Assembly: GCF_040807025.1 (NCBI RefSeq)
Contig: NC_090952.1
Span: forward strand, 26,657,068-26,721,067
Direction: 5' to 3'
Length of the DNA stretch: 64,000 bases
Source: Struthio camelus
Lineage: Eukaryota; Chordata; Aves; Struthioniformes; Struthionidae
This document shows positions 14,585-43,705 of the stretch, in pieces (the stretch's first letter is position 1; the number at the start of each line of letters is the position of its first letter). The translations under genes and the position numbers were made by a program. The notes beneath the pieces are model-generated. The model saw only the letters and a program-made list of their open reading frames with translations, was not told the DNA's origin and ran no database searches.

Positions 14585-14920
14585 ACGGCACGCAAGACCC
14601 GGGCGGTCGCATCGCACAGTCCTTGCGGCGCAGCCGGCGGGCGCAGGCGGGGGGCCGGGGCGCCTGGGAAAGGTACAATCCGGGCTCTACGCCGATTTAC
14701 TCCAGCTGAGGACTTGGCCTAAAACATAGAGCATTGCAGAGGACGCACGCAATCCAAAGATAACGTGGCTGCCGGTCAGACTGAGAAAAATAAGACTGCC
14801 GCGCTCCAGGTTTTCGCTTCCCTGTGATGGGCACGGGGCGACGCGAGCCGGGGCGGCCGCCGGCGCGGGAGCACCTCGGCCCCGGCGGAGGCAGCCAGCG
14901 CCCGCAGCCCAGCAGAGCTC
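14585..14920. promoter_or_regulatory. Most CpG-dense block of the cluster
   Basis: At least a dozen CpGs fall in about 80 bp at 14586-14664, and a similar density recurs at 14833-14890 (GGGGCGGCCGCCGGCGCGGG). GGGGCGG Sp1-type boxes are present. There is no TATA box or coding exon next to it. Confidence 0.55.
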
Positions 14921-17900
14921 CCACCCTCGCTCTTTTACCTCTTTAAATATCATCACTATGACATCCACAGTTATATTTTGGTCTAAACGACGACTTCTAA
15001 GCTTGCGCAGCTTGTCTCCTCCCGTCCCAGGCTAGTTCCCGCGCTCCTGCTGGATGCTCCTTGGAAGAGGAGCTGCCCTTGGCATCTCCCCGAGCAGCCG
15101 CACCCGGCTTCCCCCCATCCCGGGGCTGTCAGAGTCCGGGTCACCTGCATCCCTCCCCTGGACGTCCAACGGCCAGAAATAACAAGTGAGAGCAGCAGAA
15201 AGAGCCCCCGGACCTCGCGTAGTCCTTGCTGAAATGTTTGTAGCGTAGGCGTTACCTCTGAGACGGACGTTACATGGGCATGCTGCTGAGAAAACGCCGC
15301 ATTTCCATTCTTTTGGTACTTTCTTTAGGAAAAAAATAAATAAAAAATAAAGAACTGGTGGAGAAGAATGACTGATTTCCTGGCTGCGAAGCGGTGGCAG
15401 GTGCACGCGGGTGGGCGGCCATCCCCACGAGCGGTCGCGGCACAGCGTCCGCAGCGGATGCCCGGAAAAAGAGAAACACTCCACCGAGTCTTCAGAGACT
15501 TCATATAAAATACTTCAAAGCCCTCTCCTACTAGCTGAGAAGTAAAACGAATCCTTTCCGCAGACTCAGATCTTCAGTTGGTGCAAAAAAAAACCAAACA
15601 GAAAACTATATTTGCCTGCAGAGTCGATGCATTCGCTCCGGAGAGCGGGGCCAAGCGAAGACCCAGCGTTGCTGCCCGTCCACCCAGCCAGCGGAGCCCA
15701 GGATCTGCCGCTCCTGCCGACCTCGAGTGGCCTGACCCCCATGGGCACCTCAACTCTCCTCCGCGTTATGCCTGCTAAAGAAAAAAAACCCTTCCTCTGC
15801 GAAACGGCTGCAGAGAGTCAGCCTCTGCAGTCCCTTGTTAAACACCGAATATGTTTTCACTTAAAAACGTCTATTTAAAGGCATGTTTAATCTCAAACTG
15901 GCATTTTCAAGTATTAAAAAAAAAAAAATCCTTCAAAAATGCGTCTGGAGCTATTTCTCCTTCCGTTTTTTTTTTTTTTTTCCGATTAAATTAATTTAAA
16001 ATGAATGAAAACTGTCTCATGCCCTAAGATCCTGAAACCTCGGGTGTCAGCCGCAGCCAGCGCTTGTACTCGCAGCCCTAGCTGCAGGTGCCTCTGCTTT
16101 GAAGCCTTTGAAGTGTTTGTGGCACAGGCGAAGGCTCTCTGCAGAGAAAAACAGTGATTTTTTTATATACATTTAATGTGTGAAGCGCAGGTGTGTGGGT
16201 GTAAGTACGTATGTGTTTGTGTTGGTATAATATATATTTGCACAATGCACAGGGAGGAGCAAGAAAGATGCGGAAAAGTGCTTGAGGAGTGGAGGAAAAC
16301 GGTCTTTGCCGAGTGTTTGGTCCCAGGCTGGGCTCCGCTGCGGTCCGTGCTCCGGGACGCCGGCTCCCGCGGCGCCTTCGCTATGATTTCTTCTCTCTCA
16401 AAACCTATTTTTTCGAGCTCAGGCTCACGGGGCTGTAGCTGAGCCAAGACTTCCCCTCTCTCGTTTAAATTAGATCTGAGAAAAATTTTGAGCGTAAAAC
16501 CCGTGGGCTGGTTTCTACGCAGCGGTCGGACAAGGCGCGCTGTGATATACAGGCAACGGAGCGTTCTTCCTCCTTGCCCGGCCAGAGAGCGAAGCAGCTC
16601 CAGGTAGCACCAGGCAGCGGCCTCGACTCCGGCCCTGCTGTTCGGTTCGCTGCCTTGATACGAAATGATCTGGCAGGTCTCAGCCAGCCCGTGAGGTCCC
16701 CACCTCAGCCAGCAGTAGGTCTGCTCTCTCTGATTTGTCATATTTCCCTACTTTTTTTTTGGGGGGGGAGCAGGGGTAGATCCCGAGCAGACGCCTCTGT
16801 TTCCGAATGAGCCGCTTTTATTCACCGCACGCTGAAGTTATTTCAGCTTGTACCAGGGGGGCTTCAGCAGCGGTAAAAGCTTCGGATCTTATCCGCAAGT
16901 CGCATATTATTGCAGCGAAGGGTTTCCGAAGGGTTGGGGGAATGACTCCTCACCCACTGCAATTCTTACGCAGAAGAAAAGATTTCTGAAAACATCTGAA
17001 ACGGAAAAATAGTTACGTTCCGTGACTCTGCAAAAATGTTTCTGAGGGCAGGTAACGTATTTTGCCAGGGTAACGTCCCTGCTCTCCGACTGGTTCGGTC
17101 TTTTCAGCATTTGTTGCATTTTTAATGCAAGCCGTGCAAAGAAATATTGGAAAATGAAGAGGGAAACTATAATTAACCCTGTGGTTTTCATGTAGTTACC
17201 CTTTATGTTACTTTATTTTTATTTTTTCTAGCTTTTGCGAAGCCATCATTAATCTAGTTAGCCAAGGTCAGATGAGATTTTTTTTTTTCCTTTGCAGTCC
17301 CTAAAGCTTATAAAGCGTCAGTCTACTCTTCCATAATCAAACGTTTAATACCGGCCGTTCGGGTTAATTAGGAAGGATTCTTTACAGCTCTGGTAGTGGT
17401 CACAGCTACCGCATATTAGGGGTGGTTGCAGAACATTTCTTCACATTGTTATTTCTTCTTAACAGTAAACATTTGCGTAGTCACACTGCTTAAACCTGTG
17501 GGTTTTTTGGCTTCAACCAAGTGTTCCTGCTACAGTACCGCCAGTATTTCAGGTTCATGCAATAAGAGCACCACGTTCATTACTACTCCCCATCTAAGTA
17601 CTCCTCAAACACGGGGAAAGAGAAGAAGTGAGTATTCTTAGGAAAAAGATGAGAGGATCCAGCGAGTGTCCGGCACTGATTTACAAACTTGCATCGACAA
17701 GCAGTGGGAGAGGCACCTCCTCCGATCCGCTCTGTCCTTGGCTACTAGCATGGATAACAGGACCCGGCGTCCCAAGAGGGGTGAATGAGTCAGGAAACAA
17801 ATACTTTTCTGTAAACAAAGTTTTTCAGTTCAGATGTTTTTTAATAAGTGGGAAAAATCTTCTCCTCAAATCTCAAGTGCTTGAAAGACTAAAAATAGAT

Positions 17901-20900
17901 CACCGGAATAAATAAATTAACCCAGAAGACAGGAGTGATGCTCTGCAGGCATCAGGGATTAAATAAATTCACTAAATTCAAAGTGGTATTCTAGATAAGA
18001 GCTCTTTGTGCTGCAGCATGTACAGCCTATTGATTATAGGATCGAGGCGCTGCGCACTCTTGTAAAATGTACTCTAGCTGATACGACTTAATCCTGGAAT
18101 AATGTACAGCCTGGTGCCGAAAGCATGGAGCTGGTTTCTATTTACTTATTCATTTTAATTTTGTTTGTGCTTTAATTTGCTGCATCTGTGCCTGCTCCCA
18201 CCTGCTCGGTGGCTGCTCCCTGGCACCATGTCAGCACTTCCCAACGCCGCGACCACTCCGGATGACCGACACGGTGCGCTGCAAAACACGCTGATTCAGC
18301 AGTATGCGGGCCGGGCTGCTGCACGGGAACGCGTGGGACGCCTGCCACGGAAATCTGGAGATCGGAGATAAAGCTTGAGCACCTCTATATCCTTTTGAGT
18401 TTGACGATACAAGTAGGGATGGTTTGGCATCTTTCCACCAAGGTGACATCTCTACGTTACCGAGATGCAATAATTTTGGAGAGGGATGCTGCTGCTTCAA
18501 CGGTTGCACCCTGCTGGCTTTCTCCCGTGCCCCGAGCACCATCATGTTAGTGTGCCTTCCAGCAGTAAAATTCAGCGACGTGGCAAGCATCTGTCAGGTG
18601 TAGCTCTTTTCAGCTGCCAGGGTGTCCTGTGGGGGCAACCCTGTGCGGTGTAAAGGAGAATTTGTTCTCGTGTAAATGTACCTGGTAGGACAGCGCGTTA
18701 CCTGTGACAGCCCTTCATTCCTGCAGAGACTTAGCTGAGCCACCACTGGTTCCTGGGAAGGTGATCTATACCCGCTGGTGGCAATCTCACTTGAGCCTGG
18801 CGATGGAGAGGCCAATATGGACCTCCAAAACGTGGGCAATTTTGTCTCCTGCTCCCAGGCTGGAAGGAAGAACCAGGAATTTGCAGGTGTCTTCTGCAGG
18901 AAGTAGGGAGGAACAAGGTTAAGTCTGCCATTTTGGGGCTAGTTCATGTTACTTGGGGGAAATATTGCCATCCCCATTAAAGGTCTCATCCACATGCCCA
19001 GTGGAGTCCATGTTTGCTGCTGAGGTCAAGCGGGACCCTGAGCTTGAGTGACCGGCAAGTCCGTAAAGAAAGCCTCAGGGGAGTAGCTTGGGAGTGGGTA
19101 CTGGCTCTGCAGACATCCACATTTAGGTAAATGAGCCCATCAAGGTGGTAAAAGTGTGGTTTAAAGAAGATGAAAAAATTACCTGTCCAGATAAAATAGA
19201 TTCTTCTAAGAAAAATAGGAAGTTTTTTTGTAGATCTTGCTGGGTGAAATCATGCAAGCTTTGGGGAGTGGGGGTTGATATGCCTAACAGGGACTAATTT
19301 TAGTTAATTTTCCCTTAACCTCCTCGACCTCCATCACTCCTGGAGAGCAAAACCAACTCCTGGCATAAGCTGTACTTACAATTATGCCACTCATGAAATC
19401 TAGCCTCAGCCTCTTGCATGTACATCTGTGGCTGCTGCCACCTTCCTCTGAGCCTGCTCTCCTCTCATCCTGCACGTTCCTTTCAGCCCAGCCCGGGGCC
19501 CTCAGTCCTGTCCCCAGCACGCTGTAACCTTGTCTCTAGCCCTGTCTCCTGCCCAGACCTCTGGCTGGCCCTTGCTCATCGCCTGCCATGTCTGGGAGCA
19601 TCAATGGCCCCACCACCAGCACCAGCTCTGCCGTTGCAGTCAGCTCTGGTGGGATCACACCTTTGGGTGAGGGCACTGCGCTCTGGGGCCACCTCGATGC
19701 CTGGCTCAGCCTCTTGCGAGCAGCCCTGCTCCGGCTTCTCTCTGATGTCATCAGGCAAGAGGCACCATAAATGGTGGAAACAGGTTTATGCTGGACATGC
19801 TAGACATTAAGGCCTGACACATCTTGGGATGATGAGTTCAGTCTGTGCTGGTGGAAAAGTTTAAAATGGGCACACAAGTGCTAAGTGAAGCTGCATCTCC
19901 CAAGTCCAGATCCTCACATGTTTCAGTGATTTCTAGCATTCTTTCACTTCCCTGGCAACTTTTCAAATTTTAGCATGAAAGTCCTGTAAGTTAGAACTTT
20001 CAGGCCCAGAATGGTGATTTGCTGATGGGTAATTATCTAAGTTTATACCTGCTTGCTCAAGAAGACAACTGCTCTCTTCCATAGTAAATAGTGTTTTCCT
20101 CCTCATGGCTGGATGTTGAACAGCAATGGCCACTTCTTCACACTGGTATGGAAAAAATTTCTCTCCTTCTGGGGAAGTTCTTCTGCCTCTGTTGCTCAGC
20201 CCAGGTCTCTGCTGCAGGTTCCTTCAAAGAGCTCATAGGTGTGACTGAATGTGTCATTTTACCATATGATTTACCTAGAATGAGAAAAATCTCCAGGCTG
20301 CAGACCTCTTGAGACAGCAGTTGAGCACAGCAGTGCTGCTTTCATGACACTCGGGTCTCCAGGCCTCTGGGAGTCCTTGGGTGCTAGTTTTCTGACTCAC
20401 CAGTAGAAAAAGTGATCTGACCAAGGAGACAAACTCTGATCGTTCACCCTGCCACCACTGGGAGAAGCTGATACGAAGGAACGTCTGAACGAAGCAGTTG
20501 CACGGCTTGATTTCTGGGTGACTTCCCCAAATCTCCCACAAGCTGCTGCTACATGGAGCTATTGCATTCAAGTGTGTATACGGTGATATAGGAACCCAGG
20601 GCAAAGTGTGCCCTGAAACAAGATGGCTTTTGGCCCGGACACAGGTGACATCTTCTGACCAGAGAGGCTTCCCTGGGCTTCACAGCACTATTGCGGTCAT
20701 CGTGGCCCAGTACACAGCTGTGCAATGTGAACAGTGGACTGACGCAGACCTCAGGGTGTGAATCTGGTGGTGACCTGCCCTGAAACTGCTCTTGTGTCTT
20801 CGGGACACAAAGTAGCTTTTTCCATCCATCGATAATAGTCCTTTCTTAGACTGATCAATACCTTTTTTCACCGAAATCAAGCCTCTTAATCTCAAGACAT

Positions 20901-23963: not shown

Positions 23964-24193
23964 TTACTCCAGGGACTTCATAATGTCTCTGCCAACAAGA
24001 TAGAAGAGAAGTCCAGACAGTAAAACCAAGGGCACCCCAGCAGCCGCAAACATGAACGACCACCCGTAATACACGTGTACTGGTACATCGTCCATGCACT
24101 TTTCACTTCTCTCCAGGAGAACGTACTTCTGAAGATCAGCTGCAAACTCCTTCCACATCACAAACAGAAATACGAGCAGGAGAAACAAACATC
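23964..24193 (-). CDS. TMEM182-like terminal coding exon 5 (TM3, loop 2, TM4, stop)
   Basis: Encodes the end of codon 170, residues 171-245 and the stop. The acceptor CTCTCTTTCTAG|GA follows a strong pyrimidine tract. The peptide completes TM3 (CLFLLLVFLFVMW), then loop 2 with C202 (SEKCMDDVP), YYGWSF, and TM4 (AAAGVPLVLLSGLLFYLVG) followed by RDIMKSLE. Spacing from TM3 to the YGWSF block and from there to the end matches TMEM182. The basic/acidic tail differs from the histidine-rich TMEM182 tail I recall. Confidence 0.93.
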
Positions 24194-27100
24194 CTAGAAA
24201 GAGAGACAAAGACCAGTTATTCTCAGAATGTAACCAGTACATGAAATATAGAAATCAAATTGAGAAAAGACTACGATGGATTTCCATCTGTCCTTGCAGG
24301 TCCCTTGCATTAGAGCTTAATGATGCATTATTATTATTCGCGAAATTGTTCTTCAAATTCCCGTGAAAACCAAGCCCACTCTGGGTGGCAGAAATCCACT
24401 GCTAACATGATCTGCTTCTGAGCCGTCAGTGTGTACAAGTGCTGCCACGTGCTCTTGCCATCTTGATGTCACCTTCTGACTGCCTGCTGGGCTTCCCAGG
24501 CCCAGAGCATTGCTGAGGGCACAGCTACAGCTGGAGATGGCAATGATGAAATGATCAGAAACGTGGCTTATCTTCACAATGTAGGATCCACATGGGGCTG
24601 ATTCTGGATTCCCATGTTAGAGACAGGTTGGCTTTTTTTTTTTTTTTCCTAACATGAGTTACAATGAGAGACTAAGAATTACTTTTTCCTTTACCAAGAG
24701 GAAAAATCTACTATTCCAAGTCCTGTCAGACCCAATTTCCACCAGAAATTCAAAGATATGGGGATTTGTTCTGCTGGTGGCAAGCTTTATTTGGCATGGA
24801 AACTGCTCTGCACTGGAGCTGCAGCCGGCCAAGCAGAATTCACAGCAGACACCGAAGCGCCGCTGCAGCCCTCAGGAGTTTCCCTTCGCATCTTGTGTTA
24901 CTCTTCCTTAAACCCAGCATTGCAACCAAGTACTAAAACACGTGGTAGGGAGTACAGATGATCCTATTTCATGGAGAAATAACAAAGTGGAACAGGCATA
25001 TAGCCATGATGTGTTAATCTCAGATCAGCTATTTAATAATAAAGTAATAAACAGCTTATATCATGAGGCTAGAAAGTCTTTTTGTGGCACAACACTGGCA
25101 AGTGATACTCTATTCACCCTCCTCTGCACCCACACGGGAGAACGGCAGAGGCCGTGCTCAACTCTGAGCAGCGAGTTCAAGGTCAAGATCTCGTTTAGGG
25201 CAGGTGAGGTCTTGCAAGTTGCTTGTGACCCAAATAGCAGATCTCAGGAGACCTATCGGTCTCGTATTTCCATATTCATACATGTAGAAGACTTCATGAG
25301 GTCAGCCCTTACAAGGAGAGTTCAGTTGCATCTGAAAACCACATGGAGAACACACAGCTCCCAGACCTCATCCTGCCCAGAATGGATTTATGGACTTGGG
25401 TAATCTGAACAGGAACCTTCTTTCCCCATAATTCAAAATGATGAGGATAAGAGTGTGCAGGTCTAGCTCCCCTGTATGAAACAGGTGACAAAAACTAGTG
25501 TGGTCCCAATATTATTTGCTGTGTCACATTTAAGAATATATACAGCACATTTAAAAGTCAACATATATTAAAACTAAATAGTGATGGTGTGGTGACAGAT
25601 CTGAAATTACTTCAGTGATGTTTGATGTTGCTACTTCACAAATAGAACCTTACTATATTTAAAAATTAACTATATAACACATATATACACACATACATAT
25701 GTATACATATATGAAAGAAACACAGTATCATAGATAATATTTTTACACTGGAAGTGAACAGCTCAAAATTAATTTAATCGATAAGTTACTATATAGTTCT
25801 GTCGGGGTGTTATGGCTTCTGCTGCATTTAATTTCTTCTTTTGCAGTTTTTTAATGAAAGGTAGCTGGTACTATATTTAATTATTCTTCCTGGCAGTTTA
25901 TAAACTACAAAAACTCAGCTTCCATGCTAAGCAGGGCAAGCAAGTAAAGTTTGACATTGACATATCTGCTTAGCAATGGCAGTTCCTGAAACTCAGGTCA
26001 GAGAAAACATGGCAGGGCTTAACTATGTTTTTGAAGCACATAAGCAAATCTATTGTTAGAAACCTCTGCTTCACATCTTGTAGCCTAAAATGAGATTTAT
26101 ATGAAGGCATACAGGTTTCAAAATATTCTTCAATTCTTCCTCCTTTTATGTTGAAAAAAAGTTGAAGCTCCCTAGCCTGAGCCGTCATGTTTATTAAAGC
26201 GTCTTCTATATCCTAGGTCTTGAACTCAAATTTGTGCAACCATACAAATATACTTTACAACCCAACACTCTGTTATTTCATATCATCCCCCCTTACATAG
26301 AAAAGTCCTTATGTTTACTGAAAAGGCAGGCTAGGAGTTACATACCAGCTGTCATAACATTTGCATGCCCATTGAGATTTTGATACCACTTGGAATTAAG
26401 TGCACAAATAAATATTTTACACTTAATATGATAGTTGTATGCTTAAAATATCAATTAGTCTACTATAAGAAAATGATTGAATATTTAACAGTCACATGTT
26501 CTTTACAAAATACAATATATTGATAAGAAGGCAATTAAGTCTTTATTACTGATGTAATTTAAAATTAAATTAAATTAGATAGCAGCTGAACCTTGGAAAG
26601 TGCTCTTTTAGAGATCAATTTATATTTCATTAACTTATAATACCTACTGTAACAGATAGAAATAAAAAAGTAGTCCCTGAGGGACAGAGGACAGGGGTAC
26701 AATATATTATTTTCTAAAGTTTTCTTGCATCTGCTTTTCTTTATAAAAACAAGGGGGGGTTTTTTGTGCGTAGGGGAACTATTGAAGCCTGCTTTCCTAT
26801 TTATTTGTGTCTTACATCCTTACAAGGCCTATTTGCAACAACTCCTGCTCCCCTGGGTGTCTCCGATGACCCTGCCCATGCTGGACGCCACCTGTTTGCC
26901 TTCTCCCTCAGGTTCACCAAACCTCCCAGTCCTCTACTTACATCTTTGGAGAGCAGCTCTTCCCCAGACCTGAGCGTGCCGTCTGAACCAGCACCAAGCC
27001 AAAAGACAGACCGCTCGAGCTCCAGCCACGCCACCGACTGGGGTCTGGCCTCAACCACCTGCCGATTTTGGCAGCTGCAGGAATTCAGTATCTCTGAGAC

Positions 27101-30100
27101 CTCCGTCTCCCGCAAAGTTCGGCTGAAATGGGCCGTCCCACAGGAAAAATAATGGGGCCGGGGAAAATCACAGGCTGGTAGAAAATAATTTAGTCCTGGG
27201 ACAACTGAGCTTGACTAAGTCCCACTTATTTAGGAAATCAGAGTAAAATCTATCTATCTGCTCACTTCTTAATTGTCAAGGTGAAGGGAGTAAACGGCAG
27301 TGGCTGCTAGCGCAGGAGCCCGGAGACGTGCACGAAGAGAGGGGTGGAAACCGAGGTTGCCAGCGTGCTAACGAGCGGGGAAACAGCCCCTTCGATCTCG
27401 CCAGGAATAGTGCCAGATCTCAATATTGAAGGATTTATGATTAAACAGGTACTGGAGGTGATGGCACAGCCACAACAACAGAATCTAAATTAAGAATGCT
27501 TTAACACTCTGTGAAAAATGACCAAAAAAATGTAAGGTAAGTAAATTCTTCTCTGGAAAACCTACAGCTGAGTAAGAGGAGTCCCTACAGACTCTCAGCG
27601 AGGAGGAAAAGAAAGTAAAAAGGACAAAGGAAATTTAAAAACAAAGACGGAAGTTCAGAAAGGAGAGCTGATTGAAAATTCGAGGGCAAAATTTTTTCAG
27701 CAAAAAATACTTTCTTGGAGCAACCGAAAGTATTCACAAATGTGCCTACAACTTTTTGTACTTTTAGACACTAAAAATGATCTGTTAGCAGCGAGACTAT
27801 CAGGATGTTTCACTTCCTTGTTTCCAAAGTAAGTGTTTGGCATTTTAATTTTCAAATTATATTTTATCTTGAATTTTTCATAAACTTTCACTTTAAATAA
27901 GCCTCACTTTACAGCTTTTGGGGGCTTTTTACTTCAATAATAGCTGAAAGATATATTTGTTTAATTCCAGCCCCAAATAGCTTTCTATATACGTAGACAG
28001 ATTTCTTCTTGTTTTGGTCAGCAAACTGAAAAAAACCTGTATTTTTTTTGCACAGCCGAGAGAGAGAACCGAAACCGGAGTCAACACACCTGCCCCAGAC
28101 GCTAGCGGAGGGAGCAGAAAGGTCACGGGGACATTGCACTCTCAAGATTTCAACTGCAGAAACCAGGGATGAATAAAAATTGATCAGATTTAGACTCTTG
28201 ACATTTACACAGTGACTATAATGCCATAAAACGCTTGCACAGCTCTAGATGAAGAGAAGAACAGGAAAACGTGTTGTGCTGAGCAGAGGAACCACTCTGG
28301 GGTCACTCTAAGGAAGCGACGATAGTATATAGAGATTGTTTTGCTACAGATGAGCTTTCTGCTAATAGAAGTGTGGAGACAGGCTGGCAGATGGAGAGGT
28401 TACTAAGGCAGACAGAAATGTCCTCCTGGAGAGCAGAGCGGTGTTGTCTCCGCTGTCGCGCGTTGGGTTTTGGTAAGCGTGAGCGACAGGCTTGTCAAAC
28501 GAGACAATCCCCACGTTCCTCCTAACAGCTCTGTGGTTTCTGCTGGATAGAAAATGAGCAAAGTGATCTCCTCCTTTCTCTCTCTGTCCCTCTTTGCCTC
28601 TATTCACTAGGCTGGTACGGAAAAAAATTGCCGGTGAAACTCAGGCTCAATGCTGATGAGGTCAATGGCATCTTCTGGGGAGGGGCTAATTGCGAGAAAA
28701 TTGAAGTAGGGTATTAAATCTTTCTCCTTCGTACATTGCTGACACCATCTAGGGGCTAACTGCAAGACAACTAACCCCTGGCGCTCACTCTTCCCTTTCC
28801 AAAGGAGAGTTGCACCTTAATTGTGAGTAAATTGGAGTCTATCTTTTCCTTTCTCTCTCTTTATATCCTTGTGACACCTTTATAGCTGTTAATTGTAGGG
28901 ACAGGTGAATGAACTCAATCTTTAACTGTTATTCTGTGGAAACTACTGAACTTTCATATAATCTGCTAATTACAAGAAAAACGAACTTTGACTATGTTAG
29001 CGACCCGTTTGCCTTTCTCACTAGTTGCCTCTTAAAGATGTTAATAATAAGAAAACGGAACGCTGACCTTCAGCAGCCTTTCCGGAAATGTTAGCTTTCG
29101 CTGCACGTGAAAAGCCCGAGAAGTGGCAACCTGGAGTACTCTTGATTTGAGAAGAGGAACCTGAGCATAAAATTCAGCAGTTTCCAGCTGTAAGACTGTC
29201 AAAGAGGCACTTTCTTTTTTTTTTAAATATTGCAATCAGCTAGCATTGAAGAACAGACTGATCTAAGCACACACGTTCACAGTATTCCTCTCACAGGACC
29301 ATTACACTTCTCCTGAAGCACAGGAGTGGTTTGCTGTTGCCTCTTGCTCACTGGAAATGTTCCTCTGTCATAGTAGTCTGATCCAAGGGGCAGCTGTGTA
29401 AAAATGGGAGCGCACTTGTGTGTACCACACAATTGGGTATGTTGTAAAAAGAGTATTGAGATCACAGTGGCTGGGAGAAATATAGACTATATGTTTAGTC
29501 GTGTACATGTGCTCTCTAGTATAAGGAGAGCTGGTAATGAACTCTCGCTTCTGTTGCTCAACATTACCCACGACAAATAGTCTTACTGCAGACTCCCTAC
29601 ATGTTCATCATTTGTTTGTATGTTTTATCCAAAACACCTTTCTCACTCTTCTCCAAGCTGTCAGGTTGATCTCAGGTCATTTCTTCTTAAACCCACCGCT
29701 TTGCAGCGGATCCAAAACTTATTACAGTAGCACTGCAGGCTCAGTAAGTCCCCTAGCTCTGGAGGAAGCATATTCTTACTTTTAAACCTGGTTGCTAAAA
29801 TGCCCAAAGGAAATGAAAATTGAGAAGCACAAGTACAGCAAAGTGGATTCATCTTAAGAATTTAAACAGTTTCCAGAAGATACAGTGTTCACCCACCCTC
29901 TTGGTGTCATTGCAATTGTAATTAATCATATTGTCATCTACCCATTGAAACAAGTTAAAACTAGTCACCAGATAGTATCTTTCTTGCCTTTGGAAGCACT
30001 GAAGCCAAGTCTAAGATGTCAAAAGCTAGAAAAGAAAGCGACGGGCTCATTATTTGCTCATGCATTTCCATCACTTTTGGAAGCAGCTTGGCAAGGACAA

Positions 30101-33100
30101 AGGCTTGGTTGGTGAAATAGATGTGCAAATGCAACAAGCAGTAAATGTTGGGTGGGATCCGGCTGTGTTTCCCGAGTCACCCAACAGAGAAAACCAAGAG
30201 AAGTGGCTCGTTTTTTTGGAAAGACCTCTTAGAAATACCACCCACCGGGCGCTACATTTGTTACGGTAGCTGGCAGACTATCGGATTTGTCCTTTTGCAA
30301 GTACAGCAAACAAAGCACATCTTGGAAAGAGAACCCAAAGGAATCTGACTGAGTGATAAAAACTTCACCCTAACACACTGAACCCCCCCCTAAAATGGAG
30401 GGACACACTACAGTCCTAGAAATAATTTAGAGCTGGGAGCCCACCTCTGCTGCCAGTGCTGCCCTTGAGGAAAATGTGCTGGTCAGTGGCTCCATACAGT
30501 AATACAAGTTTTAAAGGAAACTGTTCAGTTCTGCAAGTGATAGCAGTTTTATTAGCTGTACTATCAGGAGACTTGAAAGCATGTCTATGTGTGACTAGGT
30601 ATGACTATGTCAGAAGACTGAAGTACGCACCTCACTGCTCTAAGTCCAAATAGATCAATAATCTGCATGCAAGGTGAGCGACCAGCTTTCCAAAAGAAAT
30701 TCTGTAGCATCTGGTGAACCATAAATGTGCGTGGGAGCATATTTACACCCAGAATATCTTTAGAGCCTTTCAGTGGCAAATGTCTCGTTGCTTTATAATG
30801 ATACGGCTCTAATCTCGTGATAGTTTTAAGGCAGCCTCAGCGAGGGCTGCTGCAGAAAGGGGCTGGCTCGTCTGCCCCTCGCAGCCCCAGCTGCATCTGC
30901 CGTCCCTCCTGCCCGATGGCGTTATCGCCCTCTCCTTCGCTCCCCAAGAAGATCAGCTCAAGGGTAAAAGGATGGGCAGGGAAGTTAAGGACAGAATAAC
31001 GCTATATTTTGGGGCACCTCAACAGTCGGTGGCAGGAGACTCTGGCAGTCTTGGTGCCTAATCTCACCATCTAATTGCTAGACTACATTCCTGCTCTGCA
31101 AAGTGCCAGTGTTTTCACACTTCCTCAAGGAGAGATCATTTCTGTAAAGGAGGTTAATTAACACTGACCTATGGGCCATGATTAGAAGACAATGTGCGCT
31201 TTCTCCTGTATCATCACTCCACATCCTGCTATCCAAAGGAAAGCAATGGCTAGGGAGTTGAAGCTGTATTAAACCTATTGTTCCCACTGCTTAGTACAAT
31301 TATGCAAAAAATCTTTATAAGGGATGGCAAGAAAATAACCGTGGAGGGATGCATCCTAAATATAGCAGGAAGTCAGTTGCCAGCAGGATGCTGACGTTTG
31401 AATCTGGGATCCAAAAAAAAAAAAAAAAGAAAAGATCAAAAAAAGATCAATTGAGACTCTAAGTGAACTTACTGAAAATGCCGAAATAACATTGCATTCT
31501 TTTAGCTTCTTTTAAATTGAAAATATAGCAGTAAGTTTCTTTCAGCTGAACTTATTCCTCCTAATGGTAGTTAATAACAGTGATTGCTGTTCAGATTGAA
31601 ACTGCATTAACACAAAGTCTGCTTCAACAACAGCATTTTTGTCTAATGCCAAGAGGTTTATGTGATGCATAACCAGCTCTTTTAAAAAATGTCAAACTTG
31701 ATGTCCCAGTCTTTTAATCAGAAAGTAGTCAAACAAAGTGCAAAAACAATGAAAAAATGGAATACGGTGATTCAATGTTATTATACTTCCTTTTCTGTGT
31801 GATACTGCACTTCAAATTTTCTTAAAAATCTGGCCAGTGCCAGCATGGAGAATTCTTAATTTTTCCATTTTGGCAGAAAGTTTAATATTTTGAAGAAGTA
31901 GTGCTTTAACTGGGGTAACCACAAAGTGTCAAGTCCAAGAGCAATCAAATACTTGGCCCCAGCTTCACAACAAGAGATGGCTAATTCACATACATGTCAA
32001 ACTGCCAATGCTACTCACTAGAAGGCATTGGAGTACCTAATAGGGGTTTTGTAGGAAGATTTCTTGCATTCGCAAATTAAATTCATATGGGTAAAACCAT
32101 ATAAAATTTACCTTTAGAAAAATTAAGCTCAGGCTATCATTTATTAAATTATATATGAGAGAGACAAGCAGATATCCCCAGGCTTGCTAGCCATTATTTC
32201 AATATCTAAAGACCTGGAGGCAAATGGAAAATTGGACAAAATGCAAAGTGAATTAGCAGAGACAGGTAGGGCCACATTGATTTAGTGTCTTCGAGATTTT
32301 TTAGACAAATAGATAGATGTCATCTAGCTTCATTTGAACAAGCAGCACAGCTGGTGTCACGTGGTTAATTATTACTACATCTGGAGGAGAGAGAGATTAG
32401 GAAAGCAGCTATAAAATGGGTAGGGAGCCAAATAATGGGGAAAATAGCAAAAGGTAATAATGTAAGGGCATGACGAGCTTGAAAGGAGCTGAAAAGGAGT
32501 TCTTCCAGGGTCAATTTTCAGACCTCTCTTGTTAAATATTTTCATGAATGTTTTCAGCAGAAAAAATTGAGGCATACTAAAAGCCAAAACTGGCAGCAAA
32601 AACATTGGATCTTGTTCGATTCCTGCTGTGTTTGAGAAAGCAGGACCTGGTGCAGGGTCCCCAATTAACTATAATTGTTTCAGGGAAAGGCCTGACTTCG
32701 TTATGAAGGTCTTCATTTGGCATGGCTCATCTGAGCTTCAACCTTTAACTGCTTAGATTGCGATAAAGATGTTTTTCCAAGTTTGAGTCACAATTATAAA
32801 TCAACTTACAGTTAAGCCAGTTATCCATTCTCAAAAAGAGGAAAGGAAAAAGCCCAAGTTATAGAAATTGGTGATGATTCAGTGGAATAACTTGTAAGGT
32901 TAGCGGGAATAATGAATACATGCCTATTTTTCATTCATTTTCCTGCTTTGATAGCGCTTTATCTTTTCAGATTTTATTAAATGTGTCCTCCAGTTTTAAA
33001 TCATTGGGGATTCCTTCCACTGAGTTCTCAGCTCTGCCAGATGTTAGGAACAAATACGGGAGAGGTCCAAACACGAAGACTACTTACAGGAGCGGAGCGG

Positions 33101-36100
33101 AGCCCAGGCTTGTTGCGCCCATAGACTCCGCCGAGATACAGAGCTCTGCACCTCTGGGTTGCATAGGAGGGTCAGAAGTTGGCAGTAGAAAAAGAAAAAG
33201 CATATTTCCCAAGCCCCAGGCTCTCTAGAACTAAGGAATACCTTGCTAAGTCTTGATGGAGCATAGCAGCTTATTCCCAGTTGGGGAAGGGGGGGAAATC
33301 ATTTATTCAGAGTCAGCGCTCCTCGTCGGTGCTCCACGCTTTCTCCAGGAGCGCCTCATCATCCGCGTGCCTCCCCTTCACACGCCTGCACACCCGTGCG
33401 CGTGCACAAAGGGGGACGCGGGCTCCGCATCCCAGGGGCGCGATATCCAGTTACCGGGACTTGGCAGCTTACCAGCGGCGAGGAGGAATCCGCCCCCGAC
33501 TTTGTAGAACCGCGGGTTGACAAAGGGCACGCCGCACACCAGCAGGAACCCTCCCACCAGGCTGGCAGCCACGGCCACGGTGATGAACGCCGTCCAGAAG
33601 CCTCTGTACACTGCACAGGCGAGAAGAATACAGTGATGGGAAAGCAGAAGGATCCCTCGTGATCTGATCAGGTTTCAGATGGCTGCGTGAGACTGATGCA
33701 TGTAACTCCAGCCTGAGCAACAATGAAATAATAACCTCTTCCAGGCAGTATCCTAAAGCTTGGCCAAAGGCAGTGATCCACAAGTGAGAACCCTCTGACG
33801 ACCTGCTCCCGATTCCCCTGATGTCTCCGATCCGCTCAGACCATCGCCTCTCGCTCTACCTATCACTTTTCAGAAGCAATAGTCACAAAATTGGAGCTGA
33901 GCAGGAGCAACAGGTCATTCTGAAATGATTCATACTTGAACGGAAAAATGATACAGAGAAGATACATTTTGCTCATTTTAAACCATTTTGTCAGGAGAGC
34001 CACTTAGGAAAAGATAAGTGTCTTCAACTCTCCAAAACCACAGAATCCATTTCCACGTTTAACCTCACATCACTCGTTTCTCTCGGGGAGCTTACGAGGC
34101 TGCAGAGAAGGCAGAATTAACTCCGGAAGAGGCAAGGGCTGGAGGACCCCCTCTTCTTGGACTGCCTCCTGTTCTGTCATAATTTACACGCAAGTATCGA
34201 GTGGTTTAAATTAAGAAAGCAAGGCGCATGGGGAAGCTCTGTCTGTGCCGCCCCGGCTCAGAAATGACGCTTTAACCCTCTTCGGATGATCTTGCTGCAG
34301 CCGGTGGCAGAGGGATTTCTGAGAGGCCACTGCAGAGGGGTTTCGTGGCAGGGCTGACAGACGGGGACAGATGGCTCAAGGGCCCTTTATTTAGTACCGA
34401 AAAATTAGTGGGTTTATTAGCAAGATCGTTTAGAAACTAGATGTCATGGCGGTCTCTCACAAGCAAAAAAAAAAAATCCCCATGCTTAACCTGGATGTTT
34501 GTTATGCAAAGCCCGAAATGGGCTACTCTTTTTACCGTTGACAAGTTTCTCGTATCCATTTTATATTGCAGCGTGTTCCCTGAGGCAGGAATCTTACACA
34601 GCAGAGCAAAAGAAATAGCTGCTCTCCCTCAAATGCTCCTACTGACAAATATTTTTTTTAATTAATTCCTCATAAAAAAAAATAAAATAAAAAAGGTACC
34701 GCTAAAGGCTAAGGAAAAGGTCAAGATGTTTGTTTGTGCAGCATGCCTGCCCCAGATCCCCAGAGGCAACGCAGAGTGATGCACACTCTTTAAAGAAATC
34801 AATTCATTTCAAAAAAGATCATTGAATTAATTCTAGCTGCTGCCACCAATTTAGCAAATTAAAATTCCTAACAGCAGCTGATTCATTAAAGAACTCTGAA
34901 AATACAGAGAAACATAAATAAAAAGGGAACCAGTTGAAAGGAAAGCTCTCCAACCGTGCTGTACTTGGTGCATGAAAAATAAGTCACTCACTTGTGCGGG
35001 TCTTCTAAGAACTTGGAGTTGAGCTGATTTTTCAGTGATTATTTATCTCACCTTGTAAGAAATCAGCACTAGGGCTCTCCCAGGAAGCCAGACACTGGAA
35101 GTGAGTCAGTGCTGGGTTGCCTCAAGCCCAGCCCAGGAGCAGTATTTTCCATTGCCTCCCCACTTGGCCATGCTCAGGTTCTGGCTTTGGTCACAGAGCA
35201 GGAGCCCCTTGCCTTGGTGAGTGAGGGGGGGAGAGGAGAAGATGGATTTAGCATGGTCCCTCACCCTCAGGAGTAGCTACTGTGGTAACCTAAAGGAAGT
35301 TGCACTGCTCACAGCACAGCACATCTTGGACTGGAGGACAGAAGACGTAGGAGCACATCAGTCACAGCCATTTGGGACAGTCGTACAAAGCAAGATTGCC
35401 TCGTAAATGAGCTGTCCAAAAGCCTTGGTCACACTTTCCTCTTCTTCCCCAAAATAAAGGCTGGTGAGCAGCTGTGCTCCACTAGAAGGTGCCTGCAGGG
35501 TTTCACTGTCTTATGAGCAGGTACAATTTATGGCTGCCACAGCTCTGCTGGCTGCTTTCGTCACGGTCATAGATCTAGCCGCTCCTCTTGCCTTAGCTGT
35601 GGCCAATGGAAGTAGCTGGTGAACAGCCACTGAGTGCCCTTAAGTCAGAGTACTAAGTAGCTTGTGGCAAACTCTTACACAGACTATAGAAAGGCGAATA
35701 CGTTCTTCCCCACACACATTTGCAATAAGAGAACCACTGACATACACTGATTTTTTGGAAAAGGAGCTGTTGGGGAACAAGGAACCTACCTGCAGTTGAA
35801 TCATAGGAAGGATGTGGAAAAGGTCCAAGAGCAATGGGCATGGGAAACAGGTAGCCATGCATGCAGTGCTTGGGATGTGCTTGGCTAGCTGAAGAAGAAT
35901 AAAAACACAAAAAAAGGGATGCTCTTATTTTATGCAAAATCATACCCATACTATTCAGATAACAAATGTCCTGTTCTGCAAAAACCTACCAAATAATGGC
36001 TCTAGTCAGAAGGCTGGAGAGTAAAGTACAAGGTGAGTAAATCATGGTTTAAAAGAAAAGACGGAGGAGTGATGAGAAAGGGGAAATACAACAGGATCCG

Positions 36101-39100
36101 AGAATGCTACCCATACGGTGCTGTATCTTCATAACCTGAGTTTGAGGCAGATCTAAAACATGAAAAATGGAGTAGCTCAAATTAATGTGTATATTCCCAT
36201 TGCTATTTTCCTCTGGAAAATTTGTTAAACTTCCTGGGAAGGGCTAAGATATTTGGGTTCTGGAACAAGCTACCTTACGAGATCTCCAGTTTGTGAGAAT
36301 GGGAAGCACAATTAGAAAGGAAGTGCCCCATCAATATTAATACCACTGAGGCTTATCATGATTAACGGTAATAGAATGAATGTTAAATGAATTAATTAAT
36401 GGTTGGCCACTTATTCAAATATGTTCCCCAGCTCAAAGGAACGCTCTGTAATAGGTGGACATTAGTTCATGCTAAATTGACTATGGAATACCTATTGAAT
36501 TAATTATTACATCCATGAGAGCAGCAAATTAATTTGCCATGATCAATCCTATTATAATAAATACCTAAAGAAGTAATACAAATTTGCCTGTTATCAAAAG
36601 GAGTCATTTTACTTCAGGTAACATTATATTATATAATGTATTTCCATATAATGTAATTAGATGGTAAATTCCCTCTCTCGAGCCTTTCTTTCTTTCTTTT
36701 TTTTTTTTTAACAAAAAATTTCTGTATGAAAAACTCCAGTTTTTCTATTGAACAATGACAAGAACTGTTCCTAAAAGATTTTACAGGGAACAGAGGTCAG
36801 AGGCTGAGGAACAGTGAAGTTATCTGAAATTTTAATGACTGTGGAGTGAATTTACTGTGGGAACCTGCCTTATTTTCATACAAATGTCCCACGCAATCAT
36901 GCTTCTCCACAGCCCTGCCTGCGTCTCTTGGACAACCAAAGCAGCCCGAGCACAGTGAAACCCCACCACATGGGAAGACTAGGGCTCCTGCTGACGTGTC
37001 TCCAGGAGCCCACCTCCTGCAGACTCGTCCTTGAAAGGAACGATGTCACCGAAAACAGCATCCGGCAAGAACTGCAAGGCCCATGACGGCCGGAGCGAGC
37101 ACTGTTTAATGATGCAGGGCTGTGAGCGACTGCTAATTGCATTGCTGGAGGCCCTCTGGAGGTCAAGGCTTATGCAGTGCTGAAGACCTTTGCAGACCTT
37201 ATTTTAAAGATTTTTTTTTTCCCCTGATACTTCTCTAAGGTTGTAACACCCCAGGGAGATGCTGTCCTCTAATTATTCACAGTGCGTTAAGCCAGGGCAG
37301 TCAGCTGCCAGTGGAAACTGCTGCCAGGCGGTGCGTGTTGCATGGTGGTTTCGTTTGGTTGCTCTTTCTGGTGTGAGCACCCGATTCACTAGGCCAAGAC
37401 CCCACACTTGGTTGCACATGGGCCACCAGTCAGCACCAGCTCGTATCTCAGAACACATTTCATCTTTTCCTTCAATTCTTGAGGAAGTGAATGTGCTTTC
37501 AGAAGAAAATGATTTTTTTCACCACTCTCTGTTTGTTCACAGTGAAATCATCACACGTGTAATTTCAACTACCTTAAAAAACAAATCAGGCCAAAAAAAG
37601 GTCTTGGGCGCCTAAAAACGTAAACGCTTTTGGGTATTGTTCTCTATAGAGGAATTCCTGAGCACCAAGGGAGATTGCACCCACGCGCACTTTGCCTTAG
37701 CCCTGCTGAAGTCAATGAGAGGTGGGAGCACACAATGCCCTGCTGGCTGAAAATACTCATAAAAAAAGCAATGTTAAGGGCCAAGAAAGTCACGGTCTCA
37801 AATTTAGCAGTCTTTCAGCTGAGCTCAATCACACAGAGATTACGGGGGAGAGTTATCCTTGCTGGTGGAAGTTATCATCCCACGAGACTTTGTAGGTGAT
37901 ATTTCAACAGGCAGCAAGTGGTTCCTGCGCGATTGTGAACAACTCCCGCAGAACAAAATCCAAATAAAAAAAAAAAAAAGGAGCACAAAAAAAGTGACCC
38001 AGGTTTGCTTTTGATTGAGAGATAATGAGAATTAAAAAAAAAAAAAGAAAGAAAGAAACGTATAGACAACTTTATCCTCATCTATGGAAGCCCTCGTTTT
38101 ACTTGCTTGCTATTCAGGTTATGACTGAACTCTAAAAATACGATGGGACGGAATCAGAGGTTTGCAATGGCAGTGCTGACATGAACCTACAAGAGCAGTG
38201 TGCTCAGGGGAATTAACAGCAACGCCGGCTGGCCGGCAGTACTCACTGTACCAGAAGCTCCAGATGGTCCCCACGTCGCCCTCACCGAAGAACCAGCACC
38301 GCCAGAAGAAGCCCTCATGATGGAAAGTGAGGATCTCCTTTCTGACCTCGGTCAGCGTTTCAGCCTACAGGAGAACAAAAGCCGGGCTGATAAGGGGGCG
38401 ATCGCTGCACGCGTGGAACGGGTCTTTGGCTTAGCGGGTTGTTGGTTGCCTTATTTGCTCGGGGGGGAGCTGTTGGGGGGCACAGAGATGGCTGTTTTGC
38501 TGGGCTTCTTTGTTAAAATTACGGAACAGAGCAATGTTTTAGCTTCTTGCACTGAATGGCATCAATAATTTTAGGGGTGACTCAAGCAACAATGCTGATG
38601 TCCTTCCTTCTGTTTATACCCTGCAGGAGCCATGTGTGGTCTTGCTTAATCCCCAGAAGACAACCCAGCTCTAAAACTCCTGCTGGGCCTCTTCTAAACA
38701 TTGGCCCAAAGTTTTTCTTCTTTCTCTCCATTTGTCTAGCCCTGCAGAAGTTTATGTGAGACAGAAATTACTCTTTGTATGCAACAGTTTTCTCATGAAC
38801 AAGGCTAAGAACACTGACAAATATTCCTCTTGTGGCCAGTTTGCTTCAACCCAGACCAGACTGCCAAAAGCAAGGTTTAGGTCTTTCCAGAAGGCAGAAT
38901 ATTGCAATGTAAGTCCTGGATTAGTTACAAAAAAATTATTAAAGCTATACCTAAAAACAATTTTATCTTTGTCACATACAGTTTCATAAAGGAGACATGA
39001 CTGTCAAAAAAATCGCACTGTGGAGGACAGAGAAACTCCTTACAGGATTAGACCCTGCAGCTGTGAAGTGAAGAAAGGAGCTGGGACTCAACAGGGAGGT

Positions 39101-40939
39101 ATTAGATGATACTTCTCTGGCCTTGGAGTCTTCATGCATCAAGTTATGATAGCTTCTGGAGCGCTGACCTGATTCTCCTTTTTACTTTCAGGACAAAATA
39201 CAAACTATGACAATGGTACGTCATTAGATGGATGTCTGCTGACAGCGCCCCTATGGCATATTTAGCCACAGTTTGGCAGAAATTCAAGATCATCATTATT
39301 ATCTGCAAGGGACAAACTTTGCCTGTTTAAGAAAGCCTGGAGAAGGTAAAAACACAGCCTGTCGTACAGAACTGGCAACAACAATTCAAGCGTCTGCATT
39401 AGAAATAAAATAACTCAGAGGAAAGAATAAAAGCTGTTCCTAGTTCTGTCTGGCGCTTTTGAAGTCATTCTGCCTTAGCAATAGGTAAGCTAACATTATG
39501 CCAAGAACACATCTTAAAAGCCTGAGATGTTTATTTTGTGCAGTGCAACATCTCCAGTCTCTCCACTTTAAAAGATAATAGTACAAACAAAAATTTGAAA
39601 CAATTAATGTTGTCATTTCCTAAGCGCACAAGAACAGAGTTGCACTGCTCTGTCCATTATGCTCTGCCACCGTCGGGGCTTTACTGTTCTGCTTTGTACA
39701 GTAAAGACAATGTCTTCTGCTAGGTGGTCGTTGGCTCATAATTTTTTTCAGTAGAGAAAGCAATTTGGAAACATGGTTTCAGCAAACAGTGTCCTACATT
39801 TGATTATGAGCTCCTGAAACTAAAGAGAATACTTCACACCGGCATCCCAGCCCTTACCAAATGTGGCTCACTACACCAGGAAAAAAGTCAAACCTAACTT
39901 GACTGAACTTGGAAATAACAAAAAAGACTGCATAGAACAAGGACCTTGCTGTCATTTTTTAATTGAAACCACACGTTGATTGGCACAAAACTATTTTTGG
40001 AGAGCAGGAGGTGCAGGGGACTGATCTGGCTGTTGTTTCATTGATCAGTTAGACGGTAGCAAGTTCAGCTAAAATCAAGCTTTCTAAAAGGGTCTATAAG
40101 TAAGCAATATTAGAAGCTAGCGATAAAATATTAGTTGTAACTACAGGAAACGTCACAAAGCTGTCTCGAAAATTACATTTCCTGCTAACTAAAATCCTAT
40201 ATTAAACTTAATTTTAGAATATATAGATCTTTTCATGTTAGATGGAAAGGAATTCTCATCTACTCTCTTTTATGCATTTGAAGTTCACTTTTGTTTTCTA
40301 TCTATCTGCACTGTAGTCATATCACTTGAGATTTAACTGATTGCCAAGTTCTACACTTTAAAAGACGAACTATTTTTAAATGAAGAAACTACAGAGGGAA
40401 AAATAGTTTAATGGCAGATATCAGGAGAAATCTTTTGTTTTTAGAGGCAAATGCTGTCAACAAGTAAAGCTATTACATTTTTGTTTTTCATTCCCTAGCA
40501 TTAATATCTGCCAGAATACAGAAGTGCTGATTTTGATGGTTTCCTAGACATTACTTCAGTCAGAGTGCTAGATACTGTGAAAATGCTGGTTCCGATTACA
40601 AAGTTAGCTCGGGCTGAGTTTTTACATTAATGGGTCACATTCAATATGCACAAATATTATCACAGATTTAAAACTGCCAGGGCCCAAATTTAAAGTTGTT
40701 GTGTTGTTTTTAAGCATTTTCATAGCATATTACTTAAATAAGTTAACTCTTTCTCTTCCAAAGTAACACAAGATGCCAGTTTTTACCTCTCCAGTCTGCA
40801 GAGTATTATTTCTGTGCTCAAAGACTCCGCACGTCTCTGTAGCTAGAAGCCAATAGTCTGTCCCGAAAGCGATGAGAAACAGCAGAATGCCCGTCCCGCC
40901 GAGGAGCCCTGCTACAAAGGCTGCTATTCCAGCCTTCAT
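23964..40939 (-). CDS. TMEM182-like four-transmembrane protein (claudin-like superfamily), five coding exons, complete
   Basis: Joining 40939-40787, 38364-38247, 35888-35790, 33610-33473 and 24193-23964 on the minus strand gives 738 nt, i.e. 245 residues plus stop, with no internal stop and intron phases 0,1,1,1. Predicted topology: TM1 about residues 4-26, large extracellular loop 27-126, TM2 127-150, TM3 161-183, second loop 184-212, TM4 213-236, short cytosolic tail. Loop 1 holds an N-glycosylation sequon (N44-N-T) and the block F65-HHEGFFWRCWF, equivalent to the W...C...C signature of claudin-like proteins, plus C99. DYWLLATE (28-35), SYDS (118-121), YRGFW (125-129) and YGWSF (212-216) match TMEM182. 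TMEM182 is known as a muscle- and fat-enriched membrane protein that restrains myoblast differentiation and fusion. This protein is clearly related but differs at roughly half the positions as I recall the family and is about 15 residues longer, so I infer a paralogue. It could instead be a fast-evolving orthologue. The family assignment is near certain; the paralogue call is about 0.7. Confidence 0.93.
25660..25720. repeat. TA/CA-rich microsatellite (TATA-ACACATA type)
   Basis: Alternating purine-pyrimidine sequence built from ATATAC, ACACAT and ATACATATG steps. It is imperfect and about 60 bp long. Confidence 0.6.
32230..32610 (+). mobile_element. Ancient CR1 LINE fragment (ORF2 reverse-transcriptase region), degraded
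   Basis: The order of motifs follows the CR1 reverse-transcriptase segment as I know it from sauropsids: GATAGATGTCATCT near 32311, CACGTGGTTAATTATTA near 32358, GGAGTTCTTCCAGGGTCAAT near 32497, and TTGTTAAATATTTTCATGAATG near 32530 (the LLFNIFINDL-like stretch). Stops and indels break every frame, so it is an inactive fossil. The family call comes from memory of consensus sequence; divergence is high. Confidence 0.5.
33473..33610 (-). CDS. TMEM182-like coding exon 4 (TM2 and start of TM3)
   Basis: Encodes the end of codon 124, residues 125-169 and the first base of codon 170. Acceptor CTGTGCAG|TG and donor CTG|GTAAGC are both good. The peptide opens with YRGFW, continues with TM2 (AFITVAVAASLVGGFLLVCG), a short inner loop with FVNPRFYK, and the glycine-rich entry to TM3 (VGGGFLLAA). 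The FYK.GGG..AAG pattern is shared with TMEM182 without a gap. Confidence 0.92.
33611..35789 (-). other. Intron 3 of the TMEM182-like gene
   Basis: A phase 1 intron of 2,179 nt. It contains a non-repetitive AT-rich block with an inverted repeat (34780-34915) and otherwise no recognisable element. Confidence 0.85.
34780..34915. promoter_or_regulatory. Candidate intronic regulatory block with inverted AGCTGCTG arms
   Basis: AGCTGCTG (34835-34842) and CAGCAGCT (34872-34879) form a perfect 8-bp inverted pair. Both are flanked by ATTAATTC/ATTCATTAAA sequence that extends the imperfect symmetry. A CAGCTG E-box is at 34875-34880. The enhancer role is inferred only. Confidence 0.25.
35790..35888 (-). 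CDS. TMEM182-like coding exon 3 (rest of extracellular loop 1)
   Basis: Encodes the end of codon 91, residues 92-123 and the first base of codon 124. A long T-rich tract ending TTCTTCAG precedes the exon and the donor is CAG|GTAGGT. The peptide runs from SQAHPKHCMHGYLFP to HPSYDSTA. C99 and the SYDS block align with TMEM182. The middle (PMPIALGPFPHP) is proline-rich and lacks the sequon that TMEM182 carries just before SYDS. Phase 1 at both ends matches the neighbouring exons. Confidence 0.9.
35889..38246 (-). other. Intron 2 of the TMEM182-like gene
   Basis: A phase 1 intron of 2,358 nt. It holds a dense TAAT-rich block (36330-36660, listed separately), a CTTT/poly-T run at 36683-36711, and A-rich tracts with a short GAAA run at about 37965-38060. 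Confidence 0.85.
36330..36660. promoter_or_regulatory. AT-rich block with many homeodomain-type TAAT/ATTA cores (candidate intronic enhancer)
   Basis: The stretch is full of ATTA/TAAT cores, including ATTAATTAAT at about 36391-36400, AATTAATTATTA near 36500 and AAATTAATTTG near 36530, mixed with GATTA and ATCAATC motifs. It lacks simple-sequence structure. This composition is typical of conserved non-coding developmental enhancers, but conservation was not tested. Confidence 0.3.
38247..38364 (-). CDS. TMEM182-like coding exon 2 (claudin-type W..C..C loop motif)
   Basis: Encodes residues 52-90 plus the first base of codon 91. A pyrimidine-rich tract and CTGTAG acceptor precede GCTGAAACG, and the donor ACA|GTGAGT is a perfect consensus. 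The exon carries LTFHHEGFFWRCWFFGEGD and then IWSFWY, the most diagnostic segment of the TMEM182 family. The first dozen residues (AETLTEVRKEIL) have no counterpart in TMEM182 as I remember it and lengthen loop 1. In-frame AGs a few codons inside the exon could act as alternative acceptors and shorten the insert. Confidence 0.92.
38365..40786 (-). other. Intron 1 of the TMEM182-like gene
   Basis: A phase 0 intron of 2,422 nt. AT-rich non-coding DNA with no recognisable repeat or exon. Short open frames such as the one at 38556-38989 have no family features. Confidence 0.85.
40787..40939 (-). CDS. TMEM182-like coding exon 1 (start codon, TM1)
   Basis: Encodes residues 1-51: a short N-terminus, the first membrane helix (GIAAFVAGLLGGTG followed by ILLFLIAF) and the start of extracellular loop 1 with DYWLLATE, C37 and the N44 sequon. 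The ATG at 40939-40937 is chosen because family members begin a few residues before TM1 and it has A at -3. The frame stays open seven codons further upstream, but no ATG occurs there, and I see none in the 160 nt upstream on the minus strand. The exon ends in phase 0 at a GAG|GTAAAA donor, with the intron starting at 40786. Confidence 0.92.
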
Positions 40940-41135
40940 GGTAGAGCAGGTAGTCAGCAAAACTGAAGTGCAGAAAAGAAGAAAAATACTGAAGTATCCA
41001 GGGCTGCTGAAAGAGAGGGATGAAGAGAAGTGCTATTTTTGGACACAGATCTTTTCACGGCTGGTATGAGTTTCACTGGGCGGTGGGAAAAGGACTAATA
41101 AAAGCAGATGACCTGGCATAACCAAACAGCTGTGG
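40940..41135 (-). promoter_or_regulatory. Putative promoter / 5' flank of the TMEM182-like gene with muscle-type motifs
   Basis: No CpG island and no clear TATA box is visible upstream of the start codon. On the minus strand CCAAAAATAG (41042-41033), about 95-105 nt upstream of the ATG, differs by one base from both the MEF2 (YTAWWWWTAR) and SRF CArG consensus. A CAGCTG E-box (41127-41132) in an AACAGCTGTGG context, typical of MyoD/myogenin sites, lies about 190 nt upstream. A second E-box-like CAGATG is at about 41104. The motifs are seen; their function and the transcription start are inferred. Confidence 0.4.
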
Positions 41136-43518: not shown

Positions 43519-43705
43519 ACCACAGAATGACAGACTCACGGAGGTTGGCAGGGGTCTCTGGAGATCGTCTGGTCCAATTCCCACCCCTGCTCAAGCAGCC
43601 TTAGCTAGAGCAGGTGGCCCAGGATCACATCCTACCAAGTTTTGAAGATCTCCAAGGATGGAAAATCCACAACCTGTCTGGATAACCTGCTCCAGTGTTT
43701 GACTA
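43519..43705 (-). mobile_element. CR1 LINE 3'-end fragment, antisense
   Basis: Reads in order CACAGAATGACAGACTCA, GGAGGTTGGCAGGGGTCTCT, GTCTGGTCCAATTCCCACCC, CTGCTCAAGCAG, AGAGCAGGTGGCCCAGGATC, ATCTCCAAGGATGGAAAATC, CACAACCTGTCTGGATAACC and TGCTCCAGTGTTTGAC. This is the well-known complement of the avian CR1 3' region. Further antisense homology may resume after about 43753. No intact ORF. Confidence 0.9.

Follow-up and report, generated by a model that had tools for sequence, protein, structure and literature searches.

An intact-looking second TMEM182-type gene in the ostrich, probably derived from duplication of an NHE2-TMEM182 block

A 64,000-nucleotide stretch of ostrich (Struthio camelus) DNA, referred to here as the window (positions 26657068-26721067 of contig C11, which spans 29.8 Mb), contains a gene resembling TMEM182, and raises the question of whether this gene is the TMEM182 of the ostrich or a separate paralogue of it. 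The evidence below makes it very probable that the gene is an intact-looking coding paralogue of TMEM182 that originated by duplication of a block of genes, likely in an early vertebrate, and that was kept here, whereas a published list of human Xq21.1 genes does not include it.

The window gene is composed of five exons on the minus strand, with its ATG at 40939 and the end of its stop codon at 23964, as read from the spliced window DNA (positions are those of the window unless a contig is given):

40787..40939, minus strand: coding exon 1, with the ATG, the first transmembrane segment (TM1) and the start of the first extracellular loop; 153 nt, end phase 0, donor GTAAAA
38247..38364, minus strand: coding exon 2, first extracellular loop including TFHHEGFFWRCWF; 118 nt, acceptor GTAG, donor GTGAGT
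35790..35888, minus strand: coding exon 3, remainder of the first extracellular loop; 99 nt, the length of exon 3 in the contig C1 gene described below, acceptor TCAG, donor GTAGGT
33473..33610, minus strand: coding exon 4, TM2 and the start of TM3; 138 nt, the length of exon 4 in the C1 gene, acceptor GCAG, donor GTAAGC
23964..24193, minus strand: coding exon 5, TM3, second extracellular loop, TM4 and stop; 230 nt, acceptor CTAG

Joined together, these exons form a frame of 738 nt that encodes 245 residues without an internal stop, and all four introns are bounded by GT..AG, with phases 0, 1, 1 and 1. The original prediction had described five exons with continuous phase and conserved splice sites, encoding a complete four-pass protein of 245 residues, and its coordinates proved exact. 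The retention of introns in the window gene rules out an origin as a processed copy.

The whole genome (1.45 Gb in 262 contigs) was searched with the window protein. All 11 candidates were scored, and the ten matches at E ≤10 fall into two loci, five of them on C11 and five on contig C1. The C1 locus (C1:152980790-153002493) was recovered through four exon matches with E-values of 2.8e-12 to 4.6e-5 and a fifth of 7.9; it holds a gene of five exons with the same phases as the window gene (0, 1, 1, 1), encoding a protein of 233 residues, and its exons measure 141, 100, 99, 138 and 224 nt, compared with 153, 118, 99, 138 and 230 nt in the window gene. The presence of this second locus rules out the window gene as the sole TMEM182 of the genome. 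No third TMEM182 locus was found in this search, which more distant relatives could escape.

The human TMEM182 used in all comparisons is an unverified reference sequence. The C1 protein is identical to it at 167 of 229 positions (72.9%), near the 71% reported between mouse and chick TMEM182 (Wu and Smas, PMC2564950), whereas the window protein is identical to human TMEM182 at only 109 of 227 positions (48.0%) and to the C1 protein at 105 of 231 (45.5%). Because of this difference, the sequences support an assignment of the C1 gene as TMEM182 and of the window gene as a separate paralogue. Homology to C1 over the full length of the protein, combined with equal intron phases, places the window gene in the TMEM182 family, and the closer match of C1 to human TMEM182 runs counter to a one-to-one orthology of the window gene. 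Both the expectation of substitutions at roughly half of the positions and the proposal of a paralogue rather than an orthologue, made before the C1 locus had been seen, agree with these values.

At the protein level, the window gene product matches the Pfam family Claudin_2 (PF13903) with an E-value of 1.4e-27 and 97.2 bits (cut-off 29.1). This E-value, together with the matches to the second locus in the same exon order, excludes chance similarity. A 19-residue Kyte-Doolittle scan gave five peaks, the last two overlapping, which correspond to four hydrophobic regions starting at residues 5, 131, 164 and 218; with the two cysteines kept in the first extracellular loop (C74 and C99), the protein has the four hydrophobic regions and the first-loop cysteine pair of the claudin superfamily. 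The predicted architecture is a claudin-type fold in which the first loop binds a partner and C74 and C99 form a disulphide. Within this loop, TFHHEGFFWRCWF is identical at 13 of 13 residues in the window protein, the C1 copy and human TMEM182, and the rest of the loop is longer and diverged in the window protein.

The likeness to TMEM182 (C1, human and mouse) comprises a four-pass, claudin-like protein, five coding exons with phases 0, 1, 1, 1, matching lengths of exons 3 and 4, the identical loop segment and the kept cysteine pair, and extends to an adjoining NHE2-type gene, the TMEM182-NHE2 linkage itself being taken from published work (PMC8987715). The window gene differs from TMEM182 in encoding 12 residues more than C1, in lying on another chromosome with SH3BGRL nearby, and in having a single N-glycosylation motif. 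Among solved structures, the best matches were voltage-dependent calcium channel gamma subunits (CACNG), gamma-2 for the window protein (E 0.0094) and gamma-7 for C1 (E 2.6e-5). The two families would have a four-pass claudin-type fold in common, but the sequence similarity is marginal and neither TMEM182 copy belongs to the CACNG family by sequence.

The region examined on C11 comprised the window and 100 kb on each side (264 kb), and contains the following genes beyond the window gene:

C11:26721523-26742969, minus strand: NHE2-like sodium/proton exchanger gene; 7 exons bounded by splice sites where they join, giving a single open frame of 474 residues
C11:26770877-26771688, plus strand: SH3BGRL3-like gene, flanked by the exchanger gene and SH3BGRL; 3 exons, intact-looking, PF04908 at 4.6e-27, best match SH3BGRL3 at 1.5e-27
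C11 26777.3-26813.8 kb, minus strand: SH3BGRL, roughly 79 kb away from the window gene; 4 exons, best match SH3BGRL at 1.4e-62 versus SH3BGRL2 at 3.9e-41

Just past the right end of the window lies the exchanger gene, which has the orientation of the window gene and is situated about 24 kb upstream of that gene's ATG. Neither end of the exchanger gene was found, and its last exons may extend into the window. Its protein matches the b_cpa1 exchanger family of NCBIfam (1.3e-211), its closest solved structure is NHE1 (651 bits), followed by NHE3 (482 bits), and its identity to unverified reference stretches is 71.8% for NHE2 over 432 columns, 65.7% for NHE4 over 166 and 55.8% for NHE5 over 355. 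Full-length identity between fish and mammal NHE2 is reported to be only about 40-45% (PMC8987715). According to the same source, NHE2, TMEM182 and MFSD9 are linked on a single chromosome in species ranging from fish to mammals; in amphibians, reptiles, birds and mammals, NHE4 adjoins NHE2. The NHE2-like neighbour, in a genome with two TMEM182 copies, is read here as the mark of a duplicated block. Of the findings that the original prediction had named as incompatible with a separate paralogue (no other TMEM182 in the genome, and a grouping inside the orthologue clade with conserved synteny), one is contradicted by the TMEM182 on C1, while the synteny element of the other has a partial counterpart in the neighbourhood, through its NHE2-like gene.

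The proximity of SH3BGRL ties the window locus to human Xq21.1. The gene list published for a 5.8-Mb deletion in Xq21.1 reads BRWD3, HMGN5, SH3BGRL, POU3F4, CYLC1, and names neither TMEM182 nor any NHE (PMC4593198). A possible loss of the window gene in mammals, as proposed earlier, has indirect support for human only, through the composition of this list; the second NHE2-TMEM182 pair would have been lost in human. The list also has no counterpart of the SH3BGRL3-like gene at SH3BGRL (PMC4593198). Human TMEM182 is itself described in one conserved-element cluster with POU3F3 and MRPS9 (PMC3436827). A human 3q-type paralogon (NCK1, IL1RAP) was considered as the source of the block and was dropped once SH3BGRL had been found.

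The comparison of the window gene with C1 by the NG86 method gave a nonsynonymous divergence (dN) of 0.45 and no value for synonymous divergence (dS), which was read as saturation. The three sequences compared for timing were the window protein, C1 and human TMEM182, and their alignment has 227 ungapped columns, with 94 the same in all three, 72 shared by C1 and human only, 15 by the window protein and human only, and 11 by the window protein and C1 only. A copy that arose in the bird line would show more sites shared between the window protein and C1 than between the window protein and human; the counts lean slightly the opposite way, which only leans against a late origin.

POU3F3 and POU3F4 are paralogues, and the two TMEM182 copies may have followed the same division. 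The duplicated block would have included TMEM182 and an entire NHE-type exchanger gene, introns included, and most likely dates from the early vertebrate genome duplications, after which TMEM182 would have stayed in the POU3F3 block and the window copy in the SH3BGRL-POU3F4 block. The second copy would then have been kept in the ostrich lineage and later lost in human.

Several results weigh against a block duplication of this kind and age. Within the 264 kb of C11, an unverified POU-domain probe gave no match at an E-value of 0.01, no NHE was found in 30 kb around the C1 gene, and MFSD9, searched with an unvalidated probe, had no match in either of these regions. The window copy scores far lower than C1 on PF13903 (97.2 and 186.4 bits, respectively) and has one N-glycosylation motif, in a new place at residue 44, compared with five in C1 and four in human TMEM182. 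The LWL85 and YN00 methods gave no result, and the three-sequence site test is a weak one (15 versus 11 sites, with the human sequence unverified). Outside exons, no convincing conserved DNA was found between the 30 kb of C1 and the 264 kb of C11, a comparison that returned 15 matches. Three of these were exons, two belonged to a single dispersed repeat, and the remaining ten reached a best E-value of 0.009; a reversed control gave seven matches (best E 0.064).

The weakness of the timing evidence, in which just 26 sites (15 and 11) bear on the question and no outgroup is included, is what favours an origin of the window gene as a younger segmental duplicate from the reptile or bird line, evolving fast and therefore seemingly old. 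Such a duplicate should resemble C1 more than human TMEM182, and the counts lean slightly the other way; the missing NG86 dS value is the outcome that saturation would give, and SH3BGRL ties the locus to human Xq21.1, all of which makes a younger origin unlikely. The arrangement of the genes could also be taken to mean that the original NHE2-TMEM182 block is represented by the C11 pair, the C1 gene being a moved or derived copy and the window gene the positional TMEM182, since the NHE2-like gene adjoins the window gene in the same orientation and none was seen in the 30 kb around the C1 gene. This would be very surprising given that the C1 protein matches human TMEM182 at 72.9% compared with 48.0% for the window protein, that birds have NHE4 beside NHE2 and carry NHE2, TMEM182 and MFSD9 on one chromosome (PMC8987715), and that the view of C1 extends over 30 kb only. 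It is just as improbable that the window gene is an unexpressed relic that has lost transcription or splicing, as might be supposed from a case built on DNA and from the differences at about half of its positions from TMEM182, since it has a full open frame, good splice sites and phases unchanged over five exons despite this divergence.

The window gene is presumably expressed. TMEM182 has been reported to bind integrin beta-1 and to restrain myoblast differentiation, fusion and regeneration (PMC12550946; PMC12650688), and a review of poultry muscle cites it as such a brake (PMC12650688). In mouse, TMEM182 transcripts are high in fat and muscle (PMC2564950). The product of the window gene would be a claudin-fold protein with four helices, whose folded first extracellular loop binds a partner in the same membrane. 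By analogy with TMEM182, it could act in muscle or fat cells by modulating an integrin complex, with altered glycosylation and an altered partner surface, a suggestion that we make tentatively. A role related to that of TMEM182 would be likelier than any other single role, while itself falling somewhat short of an even chance.

The window gene would thus be a little-studied second copy of TMEM182 in this genome, which humans seem to lack. A search of one literature collection returned no paper on a second TMEM182 copy or on TMEM182 together with POU3F4, and a search for TMEM182 duplication led only to work on non-coding elements; this fits the earlier description of the gene as a poorly described family member. 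In public bird genomes the gene is presumably annotated automatically as TMEM182-like. The second copy, probably part of a second NHE2-TMEM182 block, complicates comparison between birds and mammals: if birds have it, results from birds and mammals cannot be compared directly, and possible redundancy must be taken into account.

A broader proposal, which we regard as speculative and rather less likely to be right than wrong, is that an unnamed ohnologue block consisting of an NHE2-like exchanger and a TMEM182-like regulator was retained in birds, in the interval from SH3BGRL to POU3F4, and was lost, on the way to humans, from the later Xq21.1. Birds would then have a second claudin-type modulator of an integrin complex that is absent from mammals, and some fish genes named NHE2 or TMEM182 may belong to this second block, a point on which the low fish-mammal identity of NHE2 given above bears. 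If so, a gene block that is absent from the published human Xq21.1 list would lie beside POU3F4, a deafness gene whose distant upstream region is clinically relevant (PMC4593198), and hidden paralogy would have to be borne in mind for both NHE2 and TMEM182.

Upstream of the window gene, one further feature was recorded:

41033..41132, minus strand: possible proximal promoter; CAGCTG E-box at 41127-41132, MEF2/CArG-like site at 41033-41042 (one mismatch)

This is a weak hint at chance level: when random sequences were generated with a first-order model of the same 300 nt, about 10% contained both motif types. In the C1 gene, no such E-box lies within 300 nt of the ATG, but CAGCTG is present at -361 and CCTAAAATAG at -252.

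Elsewhere in the region, unverified probes for NCK and FHL1 likewise matched nothing in these 264 kb at an E-value of 0.01. No gene was recognised in the left 100 kb by a rough coding scan, which had missed the exchanger gene and of which the best 70 segments were read by eye. The window has 207 stop-to-stop frames of at least 70 residues. The 20 of these that were scanned against Pfam gave two sub-threshold matches and none above the cut-off, no other gene was recognised within the window, and 15 window frames read by eye looked non-coding. An Rfam scan of the window gave no match, and ungapped repeats of at least 60 bases were not found within it. The dispersed repeat mentioned above occurs at 43542-43703 of the window and at about 26749.0 kb of C11, and is also present in intron 4 of the C1 TMEM182 (66% and 62% identity). 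Positions 12001-18000 of the window are CpG-rich: three 2-kb steps gave observed/expected ratios of 0.66, 0.84 and 0.75. A+T-rich blocks also occur there, no coding frame was recognised, and the stretch may be part of the regulatory desert around a developmental gene, for example POU3F4. In the wider genome, the three pattern matches on contig C40 are paired on contig C41, which has four, in equal order, on equal strands and at near-equal spacing; C40 and C41 thus resemble alternative versions of a single chromosome, perhaps sex chromosomes with little differentiation or two haplotypes.

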